Virus record (IMG/VR): IMGVR_UViG_3300032086_002730
Span: 1 to 32,140 of that record
DNA: 32,140 bases
Source of the DNA: a virus
Strand: one strand, 5' to 3'
Shown here: one piece after another, positions 1-13,910 of the stretch
Layout: each line of letters begins with the position of its first letter
Position numbering within the stretch: the first letter of the stretch is position 1
Translations under genes and position numbers: made by a program
Notes under the pieces: model-generated
The model's database searches: none
The model's input: only the letters and a program-made list of their open reading frames with translations
Told to the model about the DNA's origin: nothing

Positions 1-1226
1 GCAGGAGGACTCACGTTGAGCAGGTAGATTCCAGAGTCCAGGTTGAACACAACTTCGCCTGAGCTACCTGTTGCAAGCGTTAGTGTCGTACCATCGACGT
101 TCACACGAGCACCTTGCAGTGCGTTGTTACTTGAGTCTTCAACACGCACGGTGACCTGATAGAGCCCAGATCCGCCTGCTCCTGCTCCACTGACTTGAGC
201 ATCGAGGAAGTAACCAAGCGTTCCTGCGGTGACGTACACGCTTTGATCTTGGTTTCCCCAAGCATCGACGATCTCTTGGGCTGTTGGTGCTGAACCACCA
301 CCAGCAGCAGAGACTTGAGAATCGAGGAAGTAGCCGAACGTATCTACCGTGGTATGACCTGCTTGAGGCTCGTCCCAGACTCCATCTGCAATTTCACCTA
401 GGGAGTGCTCATGAGTTGCGAGGATGAGGAACTCATCTGCATCAGCAGGAACAGAGGTGAATGCTTGACTGACAGTGACTGTTTTTGTGGTTCCGCTGTA
501 GTTTTCAATGTGCCTAGCTTGCCCTGCCAGATCACCGCTGACGAACACGATGACTTTATCGTGGAAAAATCCATCGACTGTTTCTGTCAGGTTAGTGATG
601 AAACTGGTTGCAGTTGCAGACGCATCATCAACAGATCCATCTTGGCTAATGACTCCCTCTTTGAGTTGCTTGAGTGCCTTGCCAGTCGAGCCAGCAGAGT
701 TGTGGCTTGAGATCGACGCCTCCCAAACAGCATTCTCGACTTGTACGGCAGAGAGATCATTGAGTGCTGAGATGCTCGCAGCAGTTGCCAAGGCAGACAC
801 ATCAGCTTGGCTCGCAGTACGCGATGCTGCATCAGTGGTGACTGCGTTGGTGACAGACGCTACCGTTGTTACATTCGCGACTGCATCGCTTGCTGCATCG
901 AAGGTTGATGCATTGTCAGTCCCACGCTCTGCTGCAAGGATCTCAAAGTTCCAGGATTGAACGTATGCCTGACTGCTGATGGTTGCAGTCTCTTGGATTG
1001 TGAAGCAATCACCTTCTGCTTCGGACGCAGGGTTGTAGTAAGCATCATAGATGCCTGTCGTTGCGCTGCGTTTCGTTACGGTCACAACATCTGCTGTGAG
1101 CGTCCCGTTTTTGTAAACAACGACAGTGGGGGTGCTGTCTGCATCAACAAGCACTCCTGCCGAAGTGTAAGTCATGATCGTCCAATAGGATGTGTTTCCT
1201 ATTTTCAGCGTAGCTGGTCTACTCAT
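1..1226 (-). CDS. Tail fibre / receptor-binding type protein, 3' end cut by window edge
   Basis: An open frame of at least 408 codons runs from an ATG at 1226-1224 off the left edge with no stop, so the C-terminus is missing. The first ~100 residues look like a beta-rich attachment domain. A low-complexity Ala/Ser/Thr segment follows. Next come two diverged repeats typical of phage fibres, each ending in GYFLD-S/A-QVS, the first preceded by an EIADGVWDEPQAGHTT element. The last visible ~55 residues resemble an Ig-like or carboxypeptidase-regulatory domain (YQVTVRVEDSSNNALQGARV). The start overlaps the stop of the LamG gene as ATGA, so translation is probably coupled. A role as a distal tail adhesin is inferred from repeat style and from the neighbouring LamG protein; no catalytic motif is seen. 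Confidence 0.7.
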   Translation of the reverse strand, partial: MSRPATLKIGNTSYWTIMTYTSAGVLVDADSTPTVVVYKNGTLTADVVTVTKRSATTGIYDAYYNPASEAEGDCFTIQETATISSQAYVQSWNFEILAAERGTDNASTFDAASDAVANVTTVASVTNAVTTDAASRTASQADVSALATAASISALNDLSAVQVENAVWEASISSHNSAGSTGKALKQLKEGVISQDGSVDDASATATSFITNLTETVDGFFHDKVIVFVSGDLAGQARHIENYSGTTKTVTVSQAFTSVPADADEFLILATHEHSLGEIADGVWDEPQAGHTTVDTFGYFLDSQVSAAGGGSAPTAQEIVDAWGNQDQSVYVTAGTLGYFLDAQVSGAGAGGSGLYQVTVRVEDSSNNALQGARVNVDGTTLTLATGSSGEVVFNLDSGIYLLNVSPP

Positions 1227-3328
1227 CGGAGCCTCGTCTGAAAAAGTTGTTTGAATGCGTGTGTGATGAATGCGTTGTATTGTGTTGCTGTACTTGGCGA
1301 ACCCTCAATGCCCCTGCTGGTTGCTAGGTGGGTGATCTCTGCTTGAGTTAAAACTCTGCCGTATATACGAGCATCGTCTAACATTCCGGCAGGAGCCACC
1401 TCAGATGATCCCCTATAGCCGATTTCCCATCTATAGGTGTTTTTTGCAGATATGTCCAAGGCACTTGACACAGTAGCAACCAAGACCCCATCCCGATATG
1501 CCCTGTACTCACCAGCCCCAACATCTGCAACCGCAACAAAATGTTTCCAAGTGTTCACGGGCGATGCTGACTCAACGTGGATTGTCACGTTCCCGCCAAG
1601 GTTTGAGTCATAAATGCGGATGTTAGTCCCATACTGGTAGATCATTATGTTGCTGTTGGCTTGACCGCCAGTCCAGCCGCCAAGCCAGTTTTCTATTGTG
1701 CTGGAACTGGATGAACTGTTGTTGATCCAGACTGACATTGAATAACTGCCACCTGTAATGCCAATTTCTGCTGGCATTTGTATACCTTCAGTGGAGCCGT
1801 TGAGGTCATAGGCAAGTGTCCCGCCTTCACCTGTATCAGCAACAGTACCCATCCCGCCTTGGTAGGTTCCGTTGTTACCGTTCCCCGAAATGTCATTGGC
1901 ACTGTCACTCAGTGAGGGACACAGCCAGAGTTGCTCGTCACCAAGGCCAGTGTACGGAGAACCCTCGATACCTCTGCTGGTTGACAGATGGCTAACATCG
2001 GCCTGTGTTAGCGTGCGGTTATAGACTCTGATGTCATCCATCAGACCAGCCGTATACCCTCCACTGCCTGCGCCGATCTTGAGTGCTGTTGTGATATTAA
2101 CTGTGTTTGGCACAGAGGCTGTTTTCGACGAATCCAACGACCCATCTATGTATATCTTCACCTCGTTTTGATTGCCATCGAACACACACGCAACGTGCCG
2201 CCAAGTTGAGTCATACACATCCCCAGTTGACTTCAACTGTTGTGCGGAGTTGTATGCAGTGCCTAGTGATTGGTACAAGAAGGTTAGTTTGCTGTCGCCT
2301 GATATGCTTGAAGCAAGTGGACCCCTTGCACCAGCACCAGCGTCATAACTGCCCACTGTCCCATCTGTTCCAGAACCAGATGCAGACGCATTGATCCAGA
2401 AAGCATAAGAGAAAACTGTGTTCTGGTGGACTGTGGTGCTTCCAGTGTCGATGAGGTCATTCACGCCATCAAAACTATAGGCCAGCGTGCCGCCGTTAGA
2501 GGTATCAGCAACAGTTCCCATACCACCTAGGTAGGTTCCGTTGTTCCCATTGCCTGAGATGTCATTGGCAGAGTCATTGATGCTAGGACACAACCACAAC
2601 TGTTCATCGCCAAGCCCAACTGGAGGTGGACCTTCTATTCCTCTCGCTTCTGCTAGGTGAGTGATCTCTGCTTGGGTAAGTACCCGCGTAAAAGAACGTA
2701 TGTCATCCAGCTTGCAATCAGAATAAACCTGTGTCGCACCACCTGATATTGAAGCTCGCCCGATCTCCGCGTAGTTTGTCTCCCAGTCTGAGTCACCAGA
2801 AATGACCACTGAGCCAATCGACGCCCCATTCTTGTAAAGCGTCATGGTGTTGGTAGCAGAGTCATAAGTTGAAGCTATGTGATACCAGACGCTACTTTGG
2901 TAAGTGAAGTTCACAGATAGACCAGTCGTTCCGTTGCCAATCTTGTAGAGGGCACGAGTCCTAAGGCCAGTATTGTCCGACATGAGAATTTCTGGCCTCT
3001 GGTCATTACCGCCAGAGGCTCCGTCTGTTTCATACCGATTGAAGTAGAGTTGATCAATGTTAGTGACATCATTGTTGACCCATAGCGACGTGGAATAACT
3101 CCCACCAAGTGGGTACTGCCCAGACAAGCCCTGTATGTCGATGTAGTCATTCACGCCATCAAAGTCATAGGCATACGTCCCGCCCTCACTGGTGTCAGCA
3201 ACCACAAGCGTACCAGACGCAGTGCCATTATTACCGTTCCCAGACTGGTCATTGAACGCAGTCGAGGTTCCGGTGTTGTCGTTCGTAGCACTCAACCAAA
3301 GTTGTTCGTCGCCAAGTCCAGTAGGCAT
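1223..3328 (-). CDS. Triple LamG/concanavalin-like repeat protein (putative adhesin)
   Basis: This 701-residue protein consists almost entirely of three tandem ~225-residue jelly-roll modules. Each module opens with GLGDEQLWL (residues 4, 238 and 461), continues with SGNGNNGT and an FDGVND-like strand (LNGSTEG in the third), and closes with LTQA-E/D-I/V-xHL...RGIEG. This is the LamG/ConA-like lectin pattern usual in carbohydrate-binding fibres and surface proteins. The final ~20 residues (TQYNAFITHAFKQLF...) are a separate basic tail. No signal peptide is seen. The stop overlaps the start of the downstream fibre gene (ATGA), and the 208-residue gene ends 3 nt upstream. Glycan or host-surface binding is the likely role, inferred from the fold; the ligand is unknown. 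Confidence 0.72.
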   Translation of the reverse strand: MPTGLGDEQLWLSATNDNTGTSTAFNDQSGNGNNGTASGTLVVADTSEGGTYAYDFDGVNDYIDIQGLSGQYPLGGSYSTSLWVNNDVTNIDQLYFNRYETDGASGGNDQRPEILMSDNTGLRTRALYKIGNGTTGLSVNFTYQSSVWYHIASTYDSATNTMTLYKNGASIGSVVISGDSDWETNYAEIGRASISGGATQVYSDCKLDDIRSFTRVLTQAEITHLAEARGIEGPPPVGLGDEQLWLCPSINDSANDISGNGNNGTYLGGMGTVADTSNGGTLAYSFDGVNDLIDTGSTTVHQNTVFSYAFWINASASGSGTDGTVGSYDAGAGARGPLASSISGDSKLTFLYQSLGTAYNSAQQLKSTGDVYDSTWRHVACVFDGNQNEVKIYIDGSLDSSKTASVPNTVNITTALKIGAGSGGYTAGLMDDIRVYNRTLTQADVSHLSTSRGIEGSPYTGLGDEQLWLCPSLSDSANDISGNGNNGTYQGGMGTVADTGEGGTLAYDLNGSTEGIQMPAEIGITGGSYSMSVWINNSSSSSSTIENWLGGWTGGQANSNIMIYQYGTNIRIYDSNLGGNVTIHVESASPVNTWKHFVAVADVGAGEYRAYRDGVLVATVSSALDISAKNTYRWEIGYRGSSEVAPAGMLDDARIYGRVLTQAEITHLATSRGIEGSPSTATQYNAFITHAFKQLFQTRLR

Positions 3329-3331
3329 TTT

Positions 3332-3958
3332 CTACTCAACAGATACTGGGAAGTTGCTTGCCATAAGATTCAACGCATCAGACCAGTCAGCATCAGTTAC
3401 ACCAGGTTGGATCTGCAAAGGTGCGATGTACTCGTTGTAGAGTTCGTCGTAGCGTGCTTTTTTCACAGCAAAGTTTGCGCGTGCCTCGCGTTCTGCTTCT
3501 GCCGCTGCTTGTTCTGCCTCGTATGCTTCGCGTGAAGCAACAATGTCACCAACGCTCGCATCTGGGTTCGGATGACCTCCTGCTGCATCAGCTAACGCAG
3601 ACACAGTTGCCTGCAACTCAGCAGGCATCGCGGAGGTCACAGACGCCCACTGGATACTACGAGGGTAGACGTTTGTGTCTATCTCGCTTCCGCCTTCAAA
3701 CACATGCTCAATAAAATACGCGATCAGAACTTGAGCCTCGCTACCTACATCAAGTGTTTGGTAGTAAGAAATAAGCAGACCGCTTTTGTCGCCGGTGACA
3801 GGATCAATGATGACCGCACCGTTCTCTTGCAGTATCTCCTTTGCTGATGAGCAAGGAATTGCAGACGCAGTTGCATCGCGGAGGTGCTGTGCGATGACAT
3901 CATCAGGCACGCCTTCATCTTCAAGTGGTTTTACATCACGCAGGTAATCAATACTCAT
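3332..3958 (-). CDS. Hypothetical protein with C-terminal coiled coil
   Basis: This 208-residue acidic protein is not a family I recognise. The N-terminal half (MSIDYLRDVKPLEDEGVPDD...) is globular and includes an AVIIDPVTGDKSG strand pair. Residues ~145-185 are rich in Ala, Glu and Arg (EAEQAAAEAEREARANFAVKK) and should form a helical coiled coil, followed by a short C-terminal domain. The start ATG overlaps the stop of the 77-residue membrane gene as ATGA. Its place directly before the LamG fibre gene suggests a virion-associated or fibre-assembly role, but nothing in the sequence proves that. Confidence 0.6.
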   Translation of the reverse strand: MSIDYLRDVKPLEDEGVPDDVIAQHLRDATASAIPCSSAKEILQENGAVIIDPVTGDKSGLLISYYQTLDVGSEAQVLIAYFIEHVFEGGSEIDTNVYPRSIQWASVTSAMPAELQATVSALADAAGGHPNPDASVGDIVASREAYEAEQAAAEAEREARANFAVKKARYDELYNEYIAPLQIQPGVTDADWSDALNLMASNFPVSVE

Positions 3959-4191
3959 CAGTTGTATCCTTCATTTTTAGTAGGTGGTTTGTTGCCTTGG
4001 TCAGCAAGTGCTTTCCAAATTTCCAAGCGGTCCTGCTGACAGTCCTCAGCCAGTTTTTCTGCTCTCTCCAAACGTGCCTCAGTCACGCCAAGATGTTTCA
4101 TTGTCTGTCTCCAGAGTACAGTAATAGCACCTGACATTCCGGTCAGTGCAGTCACTAGCACTCCAAGAGTTGTTGGATCTGGCGTGCTCAT
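3958..4191 (-). CDS. Small membrane protein with one TM segment and a helical tail
   Basis: This 77-residue protein has a hydrophobic N-terminal stretch at residues 8-26 (TLGVLVTALTGMSGAITVLW) that should span the membrane once. A charged helix follows (VTEARLERAEKLAEDCQQDR), then a polar C-terminus. This architecture is common among phage accessory membrane proteins near lysis or fibre genes (holin accessory or spanin-like), but no family signature is visible. Both ends are ATGA-overlapped with neighbours, so it belongs to the same translationally coupled chain as the thioredoxin-like and protease genes. Confidence 0.6.
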   Translation of the reverse strand: MSTPDPTTLGVLVTALTGMSGAITVLWRQTMKHLGVTEARLERAEKLAEDCQQDRLEIWKALADQGNKPPTKNEGYN

Positions 4192-4610
4192 CGGTTCCTC
4201 GCGATTACATTTCTAACCCATTGAAAAAATGACCTTCTGTTCCTGTACCCGCTTTTGGAGGCAACGACCTTGCCACCTAAGCAAAGGTCAAAGCTAGGAG
4301 TTCCTCGCGAATCAGGACTGGCCTTGGTCATCCTCCACCCTGCTTTGCGTAATGCAGGAACGCAGTCACGCTCGAAAGCTTTGCACGGGGCACATGATGG
4401 CTGACTGGTAAAGATAATTTCAGAGGTCAGGTCAGGTTCCTCTTCAATGATAGGATCTTCCTCAATTAAAGGCTCTTTGACTTCAATTGGGTCGAAGCTT
4501 TCTGCTTCTTGCTTGTGTTTACGCTCTGCTTGCGTTGCACTGGAGATGATCGCAAGGATCACAACAGTCGCAGCGGAGTAAAGCAGTACATCAAATAATT
4601 TTGCCGTCAT
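4188..4610 (-). CDS. Membrane-anchored thioredoxin-like protein (CAPC)
   Basis: The 140-residue protein starts at the ATG at 4610-4608, which overlaps the protease stop as ATGA. The frame is open upstream, but only as a shadow inside the protease gene. Residues 5-24 (LFDVLLYSAATVVILAII) form a signal anchor. An acidic linker follows (repeated EED/EEEP, residues ~40-60). Then comes a thioredoxin-fold domain with a C73-A-P-C76 redox pair after a beta strand (SEIIFTSQPSCAPC) and a cis-Pro candidate at residues 103-105 (GTP). Two further Cys (83, 110) are present. The acidic linker suggests the domain stands away from the membrane. The likely role is disulfide exchange at the envelope, possibly supporting the adjacent cysteine protease; this is inference. 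Confidence 0.75.
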   Translation of the reverse strand: MTAKLFDVLLYSAATVVILAIISSATQAERKHKQEAESFDPIEVKEPLIEEDPIIEEEPDLTSEIIFTSQPSCAPCKAFERDCVPALRKAGWRMTKASPDSRGTPSFDLCLGGKVVASKSGYRNRRSFFQWVRNVIARNR

Positions 4611-5356
4611 CAAATTACCTTTGCTGATTTGATCGCAACGTACTCTTGAGCAATGCAATTTCGACTGCCTTTCTCCCAGAGCACCTGCATTCCATCGCTT
4701 GACCAATTTTTGCCCCAGGAATTCACGATGAGGATTCCGTATCCTTTGCCCTCTTCGTAAACACCTTTGATTCCAAGTACCAAGTGACCCCACCAACTCA
4801 GACCTAGAGTCACAGGTGAGCAGTCAGGTGCAATGAGAGCACTGAAAGCAGTCTCGAAATCTCTGCTTGGTATTTCTTCGTATTCCGCAATCCCATACTT
4901 CTTCGCAGAGTTCTTGACTATCGATCTTTGGGCATGTGTGCGTGAGATCAACGCTTCCTGAAAAACCTGGACTGTAGGTATCCCGTGCTCTTGGACAGCT
5001 TGGACTGCTTGCATGGCCCAGCCACCAACATTGCGGTAGTTCTTGTACAACTGAGCCGGATAGCTTGCAGAGAGATGCAGAGGTGGTGACTCGTCGTAAC
5101 CAGACTGGGCTAAGGCAACAGCAACGCCTTGCACCAAGCCAAAGCACCAACAATAGTTCGTTCTAGCCTGATTCAGTATCGGACAGTTTGCTGACTTGAA
5201 CACATGCCAAGGTGAGCAGTCGCGTTTGTCCTGCTCGCGAATCATGTCACGCCAGACATCACGCGGATACTTCTCGCCTGAGTATTCTGGAACGACCGAT
5301 GCAAACGGTTGAGCTTCAAAGTCCCTGTCGATAAAGCCTGTTCCGAACTCGCTCAC
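4610..5356 (-). CDS. Papain-like (C1 family) cysteine protease
   Basis: The 248-residue protein has the papain catalytic layout. The oxyanion Gln is Q63 and the nucleophile is C69, in QARTNYCWCF, the same Gln-to-Cys spacing as papain's QGSCGSCW. The catalytic His is H191 (SWWGHLVLGI) and the Asn is N212 in VNSWGKNW, the NSWG motif of the family. The YPAQLYKNYRNVGGWAMQAV region matches the usual helix after the LS-x-Q segment. The length is close to a bare peptidase domain, without an obvious long inhibitory propeptide or signal peptide. The start is GTG, overlapping the upstream stop as GTGA, with GAGAGGA ~10 nt before it. It sits in a cassette of small membrane proteins where a lysis enzyme is expected. 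Such proteases are unusual in phages. Substrate unknown. Confidence 0.85.
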   Translation of the reverse strand: MSEFGTGFIDRDFEAQPFASVVPEYSGEKYPRDVWRDMIREQDKRDCSPWHVFKSANCPILNQARTNYCWCFGLVQGVAVALAQSGYDESPPLHLSASYPAQLYKNYRNVGGWAMQAVQAVQEHGIPTVQVFQEALISRTHAQRSIVKNSAKKYGIAEYEEIPSRDFETAFSALIAPDCSPVTLGLSWWGHLVLGIKGVYEEGKGYGILIVNSWGKNWSSDGMQVLWEKGSRNCIAQEYVAIKSAKVI

Positions 5357-5793
5357 CTTGCACCAATCCTCTCGCGGAAGTCTGCAACTGAAGAAGGTGC
5401 ATCAAACGACTTTGAATTACCAGATTCATCCATGACTGCAATGCAAGGCGACTCAGACTCATGCTTAAGAAAAAGCTTCTGCAACCACTCAGGTGCTCCA
5501 GATATCTCACCCGGTGCATCGTCGATCACTCGAAACTTGATACCACGCTGGTCGGCAATCTCATCAAGCACTGGACTGGACGCTGTGTACTGCTGGTCAA
5601 CGGTCATGTCAGGCGACTTGATCAGCAATGCAGAGCTCACTTCAATCGCCTGCTCTTCGCGATCTTGTGATGGCAACCAATTTTTGTAGTACCCTGAGTC
5701 CCATACAACGAAGCAAAGAGCAGCAAAAAGCATGACGGGCAATTTGCTCTCTTGCTGAGAAGGTGCAGACGATTTCTTTTGAATGTCAATCAT
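5353..5793 (-). CDS. Membrane-anchored protein with possible thioredoxin-like domain lacking CxxC
   Basis: The 146-residue start at 5793 is chosen because GGGAG lies ~6 nt before its ATG and it overlaps the upstream stop by 8 bp; an upstream start at 5835 would overlap much more. Residues ~18-36 (LPVMLFAALCFVVWDSGYY) form one transmembrane segment. The soluble part ends in a strand-helix pattern (SPCIAVMDESGNSKSFDAP followed by SVADFRERI) that resembles the second half of a thioredoxin fold, but there is no CxxC and only one Cys in that region. The stop overlaps the protease start as GTGA. Exact role unknown; it may be a partner of the protease or of the CAPC protein. Confidence 0.65.
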   Translation of the reverse strand: MIDIQKKSSAPSQQESKLPVMLFAALCFVVWDSGYYKNWLPSQDREEQAIEVSSALLIKSPDMTVDQQYTASSPVLDEIADQRGIKFRVIDDAPGEISGAPEWLQKLFLKHESESPCIAVMDESGNSKSFDAPSSVADFRERIGAR

Positions 5794-6175
5794 CCTCGCT
5801 CCCTTCCACTTTGCGCAGACGCTCGTCAAGGTCATTGAGCACGCTGGTTAGCTTTTCGACATCAATTGCATCCTCAATTTTGTCAGCAACTGCGTCAACC
5901 TTTGGGAACTTTTCTCTCACTGCATCGACCGTCCACTCGGCCAGAGGCTTCAGGACGTTTGAGACTATCAGAATGCTGATGATGCCAACGAACTGAACCG
6001 CACTAACTAAGCTCGTCAGCACAAGCGTTGCTAGCGATACGCTCTCCATGCCTTCAGAAGGCTCATCGTCAAGCAAAAACGCAAAGACCCCATTGGTGTA
6101 CATGTAATACACCAATGCCAAGGTTCCCACGCCGCAGATGAACTGAAACGATTTGTTGCTTCGTAGCTCATTCAT
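5786..6175 (-). CDS. Two-TM membrane protein, holin candidate
   Basis: This 129-residue protein has two hydrophobic segments: residues ~10-35 (FICGVGTLALVYYMYTNGVFAFLL) and ~46-77 (VSLATLVLTSLVSAVQFVGIISILIV). A charged C-terminal helix rich in Lys, Asp and Glu follows (EKFPKVDAVADKIEDAIDVEKL). Two TM helices plus a charged cytoplasmic tail in a compact gene fit a class II holin, but the tail is longer than usual and there is no diagnostic motif. The gene is overlapped by 8 bp on both sides. The holin call rests on topology and position only. Confidence 0.5.
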   Translation of the reverse strand: MNELRSNKSFQFICGVGTLALVYYMYTNGVFAFLLDDEPSEGMESVSLATLVLTSLVSAVQFVGIISILIVSNVLKPLAEWTVDAVREKFPKVDAVADKIEDAIDVEKLTSVLNDLDERLRKVEGSEDD

Positions 6176-6464
6176 AACCTGGTTCCCCTGCTTGATATCC
6201 TGACTGAACTTCTTCGCCGCTTAGGTTTTCGTCAATCCACTGCTCAATGATCTGCGTTAAAAGCTTTGTTGCGATGCTCAACAGCAATGCGTTAAGAATA
6301 CCACCGTATTCTGGAGAGTCACGCAGTCTTTTCACTGCATTCTTGCGAGCAATCCGAGAGATGGTTGCTTTCTCGGTGTAGAAGTCGTGCATCGCGCACG
6401 CGATTAGATATTCCTGCCTCGCGATTTCCCGAATCTTTTCGCGAGCATTCTTTCGCAAGAGCAT
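6168..6464 (-). CDS. Hypothetical basic protein, 98 residues
   Basis: The first half is Arg/Lys-rich and helical (NAREKIREIARQEYLIACAMHDF). It is followed by a hydrophobic helix (ILNALLLSIATKLLTQIIEQW, residues ~56-76) and an acidic tail. The hydrophobic stretch could be amphipathic or membrane-associated. The stop overlaps the start of the two-TM gene by 8 bp. The start at 6464 has only a weak ribosome site (GGTG), and the first 146 bp overlap another small frame that begins at 6561. A +1 shift joining the two frames would give one ~130-residue product. Function not recognised. Confidence 0.55.
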   Translation of the reverse strand: MLLRKNAREKIREIARQEYLIACAMHDFYTEKATISRIARKNAVKRLRDSPEYGGILNALLLSIATKLLTQIIEQWIDENLSGEEVQSGYQAGEPGYE

Positions 6465-8386: not shown

Positions 8387-9742
8387 TTAATTGTTTTGAT
8401 CATGTATTTCGAGTAGTCGTTCAGCAACAACTTGTGCAACTTGAGGAACAATGGCGTTGCCTAGGCATCTAAGTCTGTGTGCTCGATTCGGAATTCCACT
8501 AGCTACTCTTGGTGTCCCATCCTCCCACTGACCGCGTTTCCACATCTGCGGGAATTGTGATGGTGTATTGCATGACAACTTCCGCAAAGCGTCTGCAAGT
8601 TTCCAAGAGAGTTGTCTTTTATGTTGTGATTGCAATGGTGTACATGCAGATTCGATTCGCTTCCACAGTTCTCGCAAAGTCCTTTCTTTTGCTTCCTTGC
8701 TTGCCATCTCCACCCATCGTTGGTTTTCTGTCTCCGAGAATTCGCACATGATAGAGAGCAGAACCTGCGTTTCTGAAACACTGTCAAGTCTTCTAGCCGC
8801 GTCCCGTATCTCTTCCTCATCATAAATTCCCCGCACCACTCGCAAGATTTCTCCTGCTCTTTCTTTCTCTTCATTTGTCAGACCTTCGTCCAATTCTCTG
8901 GAAATCCCATTTATTGTTCCACCCACACTGGGTTCAGTTGCCCACTTTGTTCGTTGGTTCTCACCGCTTCGTCTAGATTCCCGCGATATTCTGGACTTCC
9001 CGCGTAGCGTTTCTTGCTCGCACCCTTTGCATTGCTTGTCGTCGGAGTCGGCCAGAGTGCCGCAATCTGCACTGCTTGCGTCAGTCCCTTCTGGCAAAGT
9101 CTCCCAGTCTCCTTGTCGTAAAGTCGCTGGTTTGAATGCGTTGGCTGATTTCCGTTTTTGTCTACCAGTCGTTCCGTTTTGATCCCCGGTTCCTGCGCTG
9201 AGGGAGTCGGCCACGCATCCAATGATAAACACTCGGTCGCGTCTGTGCGGCGCACCCACGGAGGCCGCTGATACAACTTCCCACTCCGCATCGTACCCAT
9301 GCGAGGCAAGCGTTCCGAGTACCTGATCCATCCCTCTAGTAAAGAGCGCTGCCACGTTCTCAAGGACAACGTATTTTGGTCCCACCAAGCGAACGATTCG
9401 CATGAACTCATAGAAGAGTCCTGATCTTTCGCCATCTAACCCTGCTCCCTTACCTGCGTAACTAATGTCTTGACATGGAAAACCACCGATCAGCACATCC
9501 ACCCGCTCAGTCGTTTCGTTCGGCCAGGTGCAAACATCATCGTGACGCTGCACATCAGGCCAATGCTTTTCAAGCACCTTTGTTGCGTATGGATCGCACT
9601 CGACTTGCCACCGTGTTTCAAAACGACCCGTTGCTTCAAACCCAAGTTCAAAACCGCCGATGCCACTAAAAAGACTGCCGACAGCAAGAGTACCCGCATC
9701 AGGAATCGAACCTGACTGGTCAGGGAATGTTGAACTTTCCAC
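8387..9742 (-). CDS. DNA (cytosine-5) methyltransferase
   Basis: Numbered from the GTG at 9742 (451 residues), motif I is SLFSGIGGFELG (~24-34). Motif IV is GGFPCQDIS with catalytic C90. Motif VI is ENV (128-130) and motif VIII is GAPHRRDRVFI (~163-173). The motif X region is LGNAIVPQVAQ near the C-terminus. The start is uncertain: the GTG has AAGGGA 9 nt upstream; an ATG at 9787 has no ribosome site; a TTG at 9901 lies upstream of an intrinsic terminator. The protein is longer than the ~330-420 usual for the family because ~125 residues (290-413) are encoded where the HNH gene lies in another frame. It likely methylates phage DNA against host restriction. Target sequence unknown. Confidence 0.88.
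   Translation of the reverse strand: MESSTFPDQSGSIPDAGTLAVGSLFSGIGGFELGFEATGRFETRWQVECDPYATKVLEKHWPDVQRHDDVCTWPNETTERVDVLIGGFPCQDISYAGKGAGLDGERSGLFYEFMRIVRLVGPKYVVLENVAALFTRGMDQVLGTLASHGYDAEWEVVSAASVGAPHRRDRVFIIGCVADSLSAGTGDQNGTTGRQKRKSANAFKPATLRQGDWETLPEGTDASSADCGTLADSDDKQCKGCEQETLRGKSRISRESRRSGENQRTKWATEPSVGGTINGISRELDEGLTNEEKERAGEILRVVRGIYDEEEIRDAARRLDSVSETQVLLSIMCEFSETENQRWVEMASKEAKERTLRELWKRIESACTPLQSQHKRQLSWKLADALRKLSCNTPSQFPQMWKRGQWEDGTPRVASGIPNRAHRLRCLGNAIVPQVAQVVAERLLEIHDQNN
8503..8874 (-). CDS. HNH endonuclease nested in the methyltransferase gene
   Basis: The 123-residue frame lies wholly inside the methyltransferase gene, same strand, different frame. It carries a first Cys pair set (C11, C14, C39, C43: CEWCGEF...RRFCSLSC) and then a typical zinc-bound HNH core (CENCGSESNLHVHHCNHN followed by NLQTLCGSCHAIHHH), with paired HH at 79-80 and CxxCH at 97-101. 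GAAGG lies 8 nt before its ATG, so it can be translated independently. The motif density makes chance unlikely. HNH genes of this type are common phage homing or nicking enzymes. Here the host gene stays open across the insertion. Confidence 0.75.
   Translation of the reverse strand: MKRKKEQEKSCEWCGEFMMRKRYGTRLEDLTVFQKRRFCSLSCANSRRQKTNDGWRWQARKQKKGLCENCGSESNLHVHHCNHNIKDNSLGNLQTLCGSCHAIHHHNSRRCGNAVSGRMGHQE
8911..9435 (-). CDS. WPTP-type phage protein nested in the methyltransferase gene
   Basis: The 174-residue frame inside the methyltransferase gene uses the same alternative frame as the downstream HNH gene. It has its own ribosome site (GGGAG and AGGG just before the ATG at 9435). It contains SLRTWQRSLLEGW, YSERLPRMGTMRSGKLYQRPP, two WPTP motifs and a terminal GQLNPVWVEQ. 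From memory, phage proteins with this motif series occur with C5 methyltransferase genes and normally end ...NPxWVExLMGFPxxWT. Here a TAA replaces the expected Leu codon, and MGFPENWTKV follows in frame after the stop. It is therefore probably shortened by ~11 residues, or ends there naturally. Function unknown. Confidence 0.6.
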   Translation of the reverse strand: MAKDQDSSMSSCESFAWWDQNTLSLRTWQRSLLEGWIRYSERLPRMGTMRSGKLYQRPPWVRRTDATECLSLDAWPTPSAQEPGIKTERLVDKNGNQPTHSNQRLYDKETGRLCQKGLTQAVQIAALWPTPTTSNAKGASKKRYAGSPEYRGNLDEAVRTNEQSGQLNPVWVEQ

Positions 9743-9795
9743 GGTATCAGTTCCCTTTCTTTTGTGTGATGACCAGTGACCACTCATGCGAGCAT

Positions 9796-9823
9796 AAAAA
9801 AAGAGCACATCAACGCCGTGCTC
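9796..9823 (-). terminator. Intrinsic terminator before methyltransferase gene
   Basis: On the minus strand GAGCAC (9823-9818) and GTGCTC (9808-9803) pair around a 9-nt loop and are followed by seven T (9802-9796). It ends transcripts arriving from the ATPase/DUF669 genes and argues that methyltransferase translation starts downstream, at 9787 or 9742. Confidence 0.8.
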
Positions 9824-9890
9824 AAAGCGACCACCCTCGCGAGATGGGTGGATTTTCTGCACACGCTCCTGCTGAACGTCAGCAGAAGTT

Positions 9891-10364
9891 TTAAAATGCA
9901 ACTGGACCCGTAGGCTCAGTCACAGCAGACTCGACAGTGGTCGTCTGGGTCTTTGAGACAGGGTAGTAGCGTTTAACATCAACACCGACTCCGTATCCTG
10001 TGTCAGGAGTGTTCTTGATGTCTGCAATCACAACCTTCTGATGGATCTCAGAAGTGTCGGTAATCTTCGTGATTCCGCAACACTCAAGCAAATTTCTAAA
10101 CTGCTGATGGCCGATCTCAACTGCCTTCGGATTCGCGTTGACGACGTTGAAATTTTGAAAGATCACGCGGTTCTGAAACTCGCCGGAAACAATTTGAAAC
10201 TTGACGCGAATGTACTGACCAAGCTTAGGATCGTTTGCTTCCTTGGCTTTTTTGGTCAGCATCAAATCAGTCTCAGTGACGACCATCGTGTACCTACCGG
10301 CAGGGATCTGCTGGTACTCATCTGCTGCTTCTACTTGGTTGTTATCAAAACTAAATTCTGCCAT
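9891..10364 (-). CDS. DUF669-family phage protein
   Basis: This 157-residue protein has the DUF669 pattern: an N-terminal IPAGRYTMVVTE strand, then YIRVKFQIVSGEFQNRVIF, then FNVVNANPKAVEIGHQQFRNLL, and a GYGVGVDVKRYYPV strand near the end. DUF669 proteins are frequent partners of phage RecA-like ATPases and helicases and are thought to bind DNA or act as single-strand-binding partners. The gene lies 4 nt after the RecA-fold ATPase gene and is followed by a strong terminator. A direct DNA-binding role is inferred from family and context. Confidence 0.8.
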   Translation of the reverse strand: MAEFSFDNNQVEAADEYQQIPAGRYTMVVTETDLMLTKKAKEANDPKLGQYIRVKFQIVSGEFQNRVIFQNFNVVNANPKAVEIGHQQFRNLLECCGITKITDTSEIHQKVVIADIKNTPDTGYGVGVDVKRYYPVSKTQTTTVESAVTEPTGPVAF

Positions 10365-11533: not shown

Positions 11534-11992
11534 ATGGCATTTCAAGATTTTTCGATCTCGGTGAATGACAAGCTCTTTACGCTAACTCTGCAAAAAGAGT
11601 TAAAAAACGGCAACACTGGACGCACAAAGCACTTTTCTGCAGCACATCGTGAAAAGCAGCAATGGCTTGCTGCCATCCCGCAGGGGCGTGTTGTAACGGC
11701 CCAAGGCATCGAGATGACCCTTGGGCAGTTCTATCATGAGGTGCTTTTAGAGGACGTTCTAGCCCAGCCTGTTGGGTTGGTTATTGAAAGAGTGCTCGGC
11801 AAACGCCAGCGTCTTTGGGATCACGATTCTACTTTGCGTGGAGCCAAGGAACTTGTTGATTCTCTGGTGACCTATGGCATTTTGCAAGACGACAACGCAA
11901 AGCACGTTGCATGGTGTCTCGGAGTTCAAGATGCAGACGACAAGGAGAACGGACCCTACGTCCGAATACACTTTTTTGAAAGCCAAGGATGA
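11534..11992 (+). CDS. RusA-like Holliday-junction resolvase (putative)
   Basis: The 152-residue protein has the RusA layout in its second half: WDHDSTLRGAKELVDSL, then VTYGILQDDNAKHV. That is an acidic pair (D96/D98), a helix with Lys and Asp (K105, D109) and a DD pair (D119-D120), matching the catalytic aspartates of RusA enzymes. The N-terminal half is less typical. AAGG lies 5 nt before the ATG. The stop overlaps the phosphoesterase start as ATGA. The expected role is resolving branched replication or recombination intermediates before packaging. Assignment rests on motif spacing. Confidence 0.55.
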   Translation: MAFQDFSISVNDKLFTLTLQKELKNGNTGRTKHFSAAHREKQQWLAAIPQGRVVTAQGIEMTLGQFYHEVLLEDVLAQPVGLVIERVLGKRQRLWDHDSTLRGAKELVDSLVTYGILQDDNAKHVAWCLGVQDADDKENGPYVRIHFFESQG

Positions 11993-12696
11993 GCAAGTCA
12001 AATCGAGTTGGAATAATCGGAGATAGTCACTGTCCGGTGATGCTAAAAGGGTATGCAGAGTGGTGCATGAGCATTTTCGAGCAGTGGCAGGTCAACCGCA
12101 TAATTCACATTGGTGACCTTGCTGATCATCACAGTGCAAGCTTTCACGATTCTGAGATTGGCTTTACTGACATCGTCGGTGAGATGGAAGCTGCAAGGGA
12201 CCAGATACAGCACATGCAGAGCATCTTTGGCAAAGATGTTGAAGTCATGACTGGTAACCATGACGCTAACCTTGCACGAAAAATGAAGGCAGTTGGCCTC
12301 GACCCTTCACTGCTGAGAAAGCAGGCTGAAATATGGGGCATCGATTGGAAGTTCTACCCCAGATATCACAAGTTGCAGATTGACGACTATCAAGTCTTTC
12401 ACGGTGACCAAGGACGCGGAGGCAAGACTCCTGCAATTGCTAAAGCAGAAGCAGACTGGACATCATCAGCCATCGGACATCACCACACTGCTGGAGGTGT
12501 CACCTGGGGATGCAACAACAATTCACGCTACTGGGGCATGTCTGTCGGATGTGGGATCGATCATAAACACGCTGTCATGGCCTACGGTGCATCGTTCGCA
12601 CAGAAACCAATCATCTCATGTGGTGTAGTGATTGACGGTGTACCTTACTTTGAACCGATGCCAAAGAAGAACAAATATGGACGCAGGCTTAGGTAG
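11989..12696 (+). CDS. Calcineurin-like metallophosphoesterase
   Basis: The 235-residue protein carries the full two-metal phosphoesterase set: GDSH (D12, H14), IGDLAD (D43), TGNHD (N90, H91), an FHGD with H138, and GHHH (164-166). The C-terminus is basic (KKNKYGRRLR). There is no signal peptide, so it is cytoplasmic. It is coupled by ATGA to the RusA-like gene and ends 8 bp inside the convergent minus-strand gene. Phage enzymes of this family act on nucleic-acid ends, nucleotides or phosphoproteins. The substrate cannot be read from sequence. Confidence 0.85.
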   Translation: MSKSNRVGIIGDSHCPVMLKGYAEWCMSIFEQWQVNRIIHIGDLADHHSASFHDSEIGFTDIVGEMEAARDQIQHMQSIFGKDVEVMTGNHDANLARKMKAVGLDPSLLRKQAEIWGIDWKFYPRYHKLQIDDYQVFHGDQGRGGKTPAIAKAEADWTSSAIGHHHTAGGVTWGCNNNSRYWGMSVGCGIDHKHAVMAYGASFAQKPIISCGVVIDGVPYFEPMPKKNKYGRRLR

Positions 12697-12964
12697 CTTT
12701 CTTAGCGTTCTCAATTGCCTTGTTGACAAGTTGCTCGGCAACCAGTTTCTTCATTGTCTTTGGAACGAGCTTGAACGCTGGGATGAGGTGCTCTGACTGA
12801 GACATCAAGTGTGCAACGATTGTGTTTTTGTTGTCTTCGCACCACACAATGCCGTATCTGTCCATTTTTGTTGCCATGTCAGAGCATTTGCACTGACTAT
12901 TTGACTGAACAACCCATTTTGGGATCAACAAACCAAGCTCATGTCCTACGCCATTAGATGTCAT
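12689..12964 (-). CDS. Hypothetical small protein at end of tail operon
   Basis: This 91-residue protein has three Cys in its first half (QCKCSDMATKMD, IVWCEDN) and a Lys/Ala-rich C-terminal helix (VPKTMKKLVAEQLVNKAIENAKKAT). GGAAGA precedes the ATG by ~9 nt, and the start overlaps the upstream gene's stop by 11 bp. It converges with the phosphoesterase gene with 8 bp of overlap and no clear terminator between. Not recognised. It ends the contiguous morphogenesis operon. Confidence 0.6.
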   Translation of the reverse strand: MTSNGVGHELGLLIPKWVVQSNSQCKCSDMATKMDRYGIVWCEDNKNTIVAHLMSQSEHLIPAFKLVPKTMKKLVAEQLVNKAIENAKKAT

Positions 12965-13910
12965 TGCAATGTCTTCCTCCGCTTATTGTAAAAGTAAAAA
13001 CATCAGCACTGTTTCCTATGTTTGTCCAAGTTGTGTTGCCTTCACATGCATTCATTTCGTAGTTTGCAACAACGACCCCAAACTGATTGTATAACGCTAT
13101 TCTGTTGCTTCCGTTTGCTAAAACGCTTGGTTTGCCGAATCGCCAGTCGCTACCTGCATCATTGGGAACAACAATGTAGTCTCCCGACATTCCTCCCGAT
13201 GTCCAACTGCTAGATCCGTTTTGATTCCCATCATTATTTCCGCTGAGTGTTTTAACTCCATTCGTGAGTGTCATGTTTGACATGTCGCAACCAGTATAAT
13301 TGCCGTGCCAGTCACAAATATTGAAGTCTTTAACAGTAGTAAACGTCAGTTTTTTGTAGTATTGCAAGTTTGAGGTTGTGCCTGACACAATGCTGTCTGT
13401 TTCGCACAAAGACTCTTGCGTTGGTATAGAGGTACTAGCAGAAAGTGTGCTGGTAAATACTTCTTGTGCTCCTGCATCCCCAAACTCAACACGCATTGTT
13501 GTTGAATTGTTATTGCAAGTAAAATAGACGTTTAACTCCCAAGGAGTCACTTGATTGTCGTTGTATTGGGTTCCATTTACATAGGAATACCAAGCGTTTT
13601 CGTTTAAATAGTCATACGCTCCAATCGGTTGACCTGTGTCCCATCCATCACCAACCACAAAATCTTTGTACTGGTAACAACCTGTTGGCAGTCCTGATGT
13701 TGAAAGTGTCATGTTTGATGCAATCAACTCTGCCGATTGCCAAACGTATGGGCCAGTAGTTGTGTATTGAGTCACTGGGTACAGCAGGCTTGTAACGACT
13801 ATTTGCGATGGTGGGTTGCACCGGCAGCAACTCGCATAGGTAATCGGAGGAATGCCATTACACCCACAAGACGGGCATCGAGCACCCATCCATCTCATTC
13901 CGTTTGTCAT
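12954..13910 (-). CDS. Putative virion/tail protein with Cys-rich N-terminus
   Basis: The 318-residue protein begins with a Cys cluster (CPSCGCNGIPP followed by ASCCRCNPP, seven Cys in residues 12-31). A beta-rich Ser/Thr/Asn body with few charged residues follows, ending in FTFTISGGRHCNDI. More scattered Cys (CYQY, CNNN, CETD, CDWHGNYTGCD) raise the possibility of disulfides or metal binding. AGGA precedes the ATG. It sits near the end of the tail operon, where adhesion or tip proteins are usual. No family recognised; the composition looks like an extracellular structural protein. Confidence 0.6.
   Translation of the reverse strand: MTNGMRWMGARCPSCGCNGIPPITYASCCRCNPPSQIVVTSLLYPVTQYTTTGPYVWQSAELIASNMTLSTSGLPTGCYQYKDFVVGDGWDTGQPIGAYDYLNENAWYSYVNGTQYNDNQVTPWELNVYFTCNNNSTTMRVEFGDAGAQEVFTSTLSASTSIPTQESLCETDSIVSGTTSNLQYYKKLTFTTVKDFNICDWHGNYTGCDMSNMTLTNGVKTLSGNNDGNQNGSSSWTSGGMSGDYIVVPNDAGSDWRFGKPSVLANGSNRIALYNQFGVVVANYEMNACEGNTTWTNIGNSADVFTFTISGGRHCNDI

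Follow-up and report, generated by a model that had tools for sequence, protein, structure and literature searches.

A phage cassette that pairs a papain-family protease with membrane-anchored thioredoxin folds, and its possible role in lysis of planctomycetes

What a tailed phage might use a cysteine protease for, when its gene lies among genes for membrane-anchored thioredoxin folds and small membrane proteins, is the question raised by positions 3332-6464 (minus strand) of the virus record IMGVR_UViG_3300032086_002730. The window, that is the stretch of DNA analysed, comprises the IMG/VR record in full (32,140 bases). Seven minus-strand genes overlap there by a few bases and are therefore probably translated as one coupled operon, referred to below as the cassette. 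Its genes are listed with the evidence for each in brackets (dN/dS, ratio of replacement to synonymous substitution rates).

6168-6464, minus strand: g00a, 98 amino acids (aa), charged towards the N-terminus and with one hydrophobic helix at the C-terminus (synteny, dN/dS, hydropathy)
5786-6175, minus strand: g01, 129 aa, holin-like, two predicted transmembrane helices and a helical tail (hydropathy, fusions)
5353-5793, minus strand: g02, 146 aa, predicted membrane-anchored thioredoxin fold without CxxC, similar to the b' domain of protein disulfide isomerase (PDI) (AlphaFold/Foldseek)
4610-5356, minus strand: 248 aa, predicted papain-family cysteine protease, GTG start (Pfam, profile, catalytic residues)
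4188-4610, minus strand: 140 aa, predicted membrane-anchored CxxC thioredoxin (structure prediction, structure matches)
3958-4191, minus strand: g05, 77 aa, one N-terminal transmembrane helix and a helical tail (synteny, dN/dS, hydropathy)
3332-3958, minus strand: g06, 208 aa, last of the coupled genes, followed by the gene of the LamG tail protein (synteny)

A preliminary description of the locus had named five of these genes, and its coordinates and residues (Q63, C69, H191 and N212 in the 248-aa protein, C73-A-P-C76 in the 140-aa protein) were exact. The five genes stood, but the unit also takes in the 98-aa gene (6168-6464) and the 208-aa gene (3332-3958), both of which are syntenic in relatives. 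The dN/dS ratio was 0.02-0.06 for the papain, 0.06-0.10 for g00a and below 0.18 for every other cassette gene where it could be computed, so that synonymous changes far exceed replacements. The cassette genes are therefore real and under strong purifying selection.

The 248-aa protein exceeded the gathering score of Pfam PF00112 (peptidase C1) by a narrow margin (21.0 versus 20.7 bits), a cut-off also passed by the papains of loci L072 and L076. In a profile comparison with solved structures it matched papains and cathepsins, among them chymopapain (1.8e-18), to which its catalytic residues align. The set Q63, C69, H191 and N212 has papain-like order and spacing and is invariant in ten divergent relatives. 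By sequence, the protein is classified as a member of the peptidase C1A (papain) family, in agreement with the papain fold proposed before, and proteolysis is predicted. It shares with papain, chymopapain and the cathepsins the Q/C/H/N set, the spacing and an NSWG motif. In contrast to them it is phage-encoded, has no signal peptide (about 60 aa precede the oxyanion Gln) and lacks a Cys at the position of papain Cys22, and the cassette papains carry a signature of their own, [FL][SN]WW[GKR]H, around the catalytic His. Between groups these papains are 21-43% identical. No relative was found at E 0.01 in 50,697 phage records of the cultured phage collection or in 72,556 plasmids.

Two partners of the protease are assigned thioredoxin folds on the basis of structure prediction. 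The 140-aa protein consists of a transmembrane anchor, an acidic linker and a thioredoxin domain (residues 61-140) with the motif C73-A-P-C76. By sequence it hit no thioredoxin family of Pfam, and because its profile matched nothing among solved structures, the fold was predicted with AlphaFold, which gave a block confidence (pLDDT) of 86-95 over residues 61-140. The best solved-structure matches in Foldseek were thioredoxins, and the equivalents in L021 and L025 passed PF00085. The model thus bears out the membrane-anchored thioredoxin for which a structure prediction had been suggested. For g02, pLDDT was 77-92 over residues 51-147 and mostly about 90. Its best match was the b' domain of PDILT, a non-catalytic PDI domain (weak Foldseek E of 4.7e-3, prob 1.00), and the high-ranking matches were mostly thioredoxin folds. 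Its only cysteines are Cys27 and Cys117, which form no redox-active CxxC, and its predicted topology is N-in with the domain outside. The preliminary description had recognised the anchor and missed the fold; as modelled, g02 is a second membrane-anchored thioredoxin fold of the non-CxxC type. Compared with known thioredoxin and PDI domains, one cassette partner has a CxPC thioredoxin and the other a PDI b'-like fold without CxxC; unlike those domains, both are encoded by a phage, carry a membrane anchor and are associated with a protease and with holin-like proteins.

Hydropathy marks the 129-aa and 98-aa products as membrane proteins. In g01, described earlier as a two-helix holin candidate, the second helix scored 2.31, whereas the first is weak (1.34). 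The 98-aa g00a is syntenic in six relatives at 48-95% identity and in L008 at 31%, and in L026, L030 and L076 the cassette is preceded by proteins that resemble it by eye and likewise end in a hydrophobic helix; g00a is a candidate membrane-acting member of the cassette. The 77-aa g05 is 79-95% identical in relatives. Its N-terminal helix and helical tail follow from hydropathy, and no lipoprotein partner of the kind found in the spanin pair Rz/Rz1 was noticed in the window. Synteny of g06 was found in L002, L003, L005, L006, L008, L010 and L017, and the gene is absent from L004. As far as hydropathy predicts, small transmembrane proteins adjoin a soluble hydrolase in the cassette.

Gene order is kept in six close relatives for the genes covered (L004 without the 208-aa gene), and also in L008, where papain identity has fallen to 43%. 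The helicase next to the cassette of L004 and L006 is 43% identical, versus mostly 55-91% for the cassette proteins; judged by these identities, the cassette is therefore exchanged between phages as a module. Similar papains beside equivalent partners were found in the distant phages L010, L011, L017, L020-L026 and L028, and the cassette recurs in unrelated phages and planctomycete prophages, where a search had been recommended. Among 22 loci examined, the profile of the no-CxxC thioredoxin fold found this fold beside the papain in 17, of which seven are the profile's own training sequences and L028 is marginal; an exported or anchored CxxC thioredoxin was present in 13. The thioredoxin slot holds a short anchored remnant in L010 (5079-5306) and a small open reading frame (ORF) in L017 (6626-6820), both with the no-CxxC fold kept, and the two folds are therefore separable. 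Downstream of the papain, L020 (2889-3335) and L030 (3349-3729) encode one more anchored protein without CxxC that is possibly thioredoxin-like.

Fusions of cassette proteins were found as well. The holin-like protein (g01) and the no-CxxC fold (g02) are one protein in L010 and L017. In prophage G196 and in the pair G822/G824, the cassette encodes a trypsin-like protease domain that is followed in one chain by a CxxC thioredoxin, and these fusions carry a signal or a lipoprotein anchor. As read from sequence, the strongest evidence for a joint action of protease, thioredoxin and membrane protein comes from the fusions. The trypsin-thioredoxin fusions strengthen the pairing of protease and disulfide exchange on which a lysis role had first been proposed; lysis itself and the absence of an endolysin are still only suggested.

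Hosts were sought in bacterial genomes. A genome scan gave one convincing cassette, in a metagenome-assembled genome (MAG) of the Planctomycetaceae (L030), and a search of Planctomycetota placed the G196 cassette, on a 3.02-Mb contig, inside a prophage that also encodes an integrase and capsid, portal and tail proteins. Order-level searches found it in 6 of 170 and 5 of 297 genomes. The G764 cassette also lies among phage genes, and the flanks in G822/G824 hold few recognisable ones. L031, from a Sphingobacteriia MAG, was rejected as host evidence: its papain is a fragment (11-556) at a contig edge that follows the sequence of phage L021 almost exactly before the contig changes to unrelated genes, so it is probably an assembly chimera. 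Besides the genome of L031, a Bacteroidota control (297 genomes) gave only matches near 1e-10 to 3e-11, as expected of cellular papains.

According to the literature, YTV proteins are Cys-rich, located in the wall, possibly control wall rigidity and are confined to Planctomycetales/Planctomycetia; most Planctomycetales are said to lack peptidoglycan genes, and in Planctopirus limnophila these genes are reported to be largely dispensable (PMC8567305, PMC10632474). YTV proteins are encoded by 10 of the 11 Planctomycetota carriers of the cassette versus 40 of 392 genomes in a phylum sample, nine of the carriers having been found by searches around the other two and several genomes being incomplete MAGs. 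Both carriers in the 392-genome sample are among its 40 YTV-positive genomes (chance 0.010, in a test with two carriers only and confounded by phylogeny). By these comparisons, the distribution of the cassette appears to match that of the Cys-rich wall better than that of peptidoglycan. The earlier suggestion of a planctomycete host with a Cys-rich wall is therefore independently supported at the level of the host class. From homologous cassettes in planctomycete genomes, and from these homologies only, we infer such a host for the window phage itself.

A conventional lysis enzyme was looked for by several routes. The Pfam scan, a weak test, gave no lytic-enzyme or muralytic family in the cassette or the window, and PHROGs gave none among the 25 of 58 families listed, in line with the earlier statement that no lysozyme, amidase or transglycosylase is visible in the window. 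No peptidoglycan hydrolase family was found by Pfam in six phages or prophages (the window, G396, G399, G402, G403 and prophage G196) or in the scanned part of G764, and Amidase_2 alone was found in none of 15 viral records. Five unknown window proteins compared with solved structures gave no lysozyme match. The lack of an annotated endolysin was dropped as evidence: the cultured phages BgVeeders33, Aval and K303 also have no gene labelled endolysin.

Taken together, the chances are judged about even that the cassette is a phage lysis (egress) module that acts by proteolysis and reduction on a protein wall held together by disulfides, either instead of peptidoglycan or in addition to it. In such a module, g00a, g01 and g05 would act as holins or membrane disruptors, and the papain, having no signal peptide, would remain cytoplasmic, as classical endolysins do, until released by these proteins. 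The anchored CxxC thioredoxin would reduce the disulfide bonds in wall proteins, and perhaps maintain Cys69 of the protease in its reduced state as well, while the no-CxxC fold, coupled to the holin-like protein, would hold the substrate like a PDI b' domain. The papain would then cleave the opened wall proteins. The lysis role, the wall as target, holin-mediated export and the topology are what we infer from this arrangement. The wider proposition is more doubtful and is put forward tentatively: that planctomycete phages possess a distinct class of lysis machinery in which a protease and membrane-bound thiol-disulfide exchange proteins, coupled to or released by holins, dismantle the YTV wall and replace the peptidoglycan endolysin.

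Known systems offer parallels to such a module. Like the S-R-Rz (holin-endolysin-spanin) cassette of lambda, it would combine adjacent small membrane proteins and a signal-less soluble hydrolase in coupled genes. The lambda lysis cassette lies just upstream of the terminase gene, and in several phages that are unrelated to one another the present one likewise sits immediately upstream of the gene for the large terminase or of tail genes. It differs in that its hydrolase is predicted to be a papain-family protease instead of a peptidoglycan hydrolase, in its two added anchored thioredoxin folds, and in that its lysis role is a proposed one. In signal-arrest-release (SAR) endolysins such as Lyz of phage P1, thiol/disulfide exchange controls a lysis enzyme that is muralytic and has its own transmembrane segment. 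Thiol/disulfide control of a phage lysis enzyme would be the common idea, whereas the cassette uses separate thioredoxins and a protease.

Apart from the narrow base of the co-occurrence test, several findings weigh against a lysis module directed at a protein wall. The CxxC thioredoxin was lost or not found in L010, L017, L026, L028 and L076 and is therefore not essential, and the orientation of the 140-aa thioredoxin is ambiguous by the charge rule, with K/R on both sides of the membrane segment. PBP transpeptidases are absent from five of the 11 carriers but present in six; the wall of such hosts is therefore not purely proteinaceous and peptidoglycan would have to be breached too, for which no enzyme was found. 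In a control, the Pfam procedure gave no endolysin in BgVeeders33, Aval and K303, and the Aval endolysin that it missed matches a solved endolysin at 7e-26. The absence of a Pfam hydrolase is therefore weak evidence.

This control also speaks for the cassette as an accessory of an ordinary phage whose endolysin, conventional in kind and divergent in sequence, is encoded elsewhere, since divergent endolysins evidently escape Pfam and the window record may be a fragment. Such an enzyme is nevertheless considered unlikely: none of the main unknown window proteins matched lysozyme among solved structures, and Pfam gave no peptidoglycan hydrolase in whole or near-whole relatives. Alternatively, lysis would be retained as the role and the thioredoxins would serve the protease instead of the wall: Cys69 of the papain would become oxidised once outside the cytoplasm, and the anchored CxxC thioredoxin would keep or make the enzyme active, as a redox-timed lysin. 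Redox-controlled phage lysins exist in the form of the SAR endolysins, a thioredoxin adjoins the protease in 13 of the 22 loci, trypsin-thioredoxin fusions stand beside the papain in two prophage groups, and in the window clade a second Cys lies two residues past the catalytic one (C69-W-C71). Conservation of C71 is, however, limited to the group of the window, L008 and L010, a trypsin needs no reduced Cys and yet bears a thioredoxin domain of the same kind, and several cassettes without the CxxC thioredoxin keep the no-CxxC fold, all of which make this reading distinctly unlikely.

Neither of two roles outside lysis is given much weight. The cassette could modify the envelope by removing or altering surface proteins, for instance in a superinfection block or a change of the lysogen surface, and its anchored or exported partners and its presence in integrated prophages would suit this. 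It was judged improbable, as the protease has no export signal, the cassettes sit among late structural genes and are not isolated like cargo genes, and one also occurs in a phage without a recognised integrase (the window). The least probable of the four alternatives is virion maturation or entry, in which the protease would process a structural protein or be a virion entry enzyme and the thioredoxins would help to fold Cys-rich tail proteins. Capsid or tail genes do adjoin the cassette in L009, L011 and L026, and tail proteins with Cys-rich N-termini occur in the window (12954-13910), G402 and G396. A ClpP-type head protease is already present in the window, however, and membrane anchors on both thioredoxin folds together with coupled holin-like proteins are unlike a soluble assembly role.

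The window belongs to a tailed phage: outside the cassette it encodes TerL, a portal protein, a ClpP-type head protease, capsid and tape measure proteins, a primase and a helicase; no recognised integrase was found in it. Its other features are as follows.

1223-3328, minus strand: 701-aa tail protein encoded downstream of the cassette, containing three concanavalin A-like (LamG) domains (context only)
8387-9901: 504-aa ORF of a C5 cytosine methyltransferase, overlapped in its middle by an HNH ORF (8503-8874) in another frame
11534-12696, plus strand: 152-aa gene and calcineurin-like phosphoesterase amid minus-strand genes
12954-13910: 318-aa protein of the tail region whose N-terminus is rich in Cys (ARCPSCGC...CCRCNPP)

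In relatives, the methyltransferase gene is either without its middle part or missing altogether, and the plus-strand orientation of the phosphoesterase pair is kept in relatives. The 318-aa Cys-rich protein had no match in the phage collection or among solved structures; Cys-rich stretches also occur at the start of or within tail proteins of G396 and G402. PHROGs annotated a protein of the relative G396 as phosphoadenosine phosphosulfate reductase (phrog_424), probably the product of the ORF at 10490-11269 of L040.

In the literature, no paper describing such a cassette was found. If the proposed lysis module is real, it would to our knowledge be the first phage lysis system built on proteolysis and disulfide exchange. 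It has long been disputed whether the load in planctomycete walls is carried by peptidoglycan or by a Cys-rich protein layer. Since a phage has to break through the structure that keeps the cell intact, its lysis genes report on the load-bearing layer. If the cassette is a lysis module, phage evolution would point to the protein layer, and the cassette would be of use for opening planctomycete cells and for direct tests of YTV walls.

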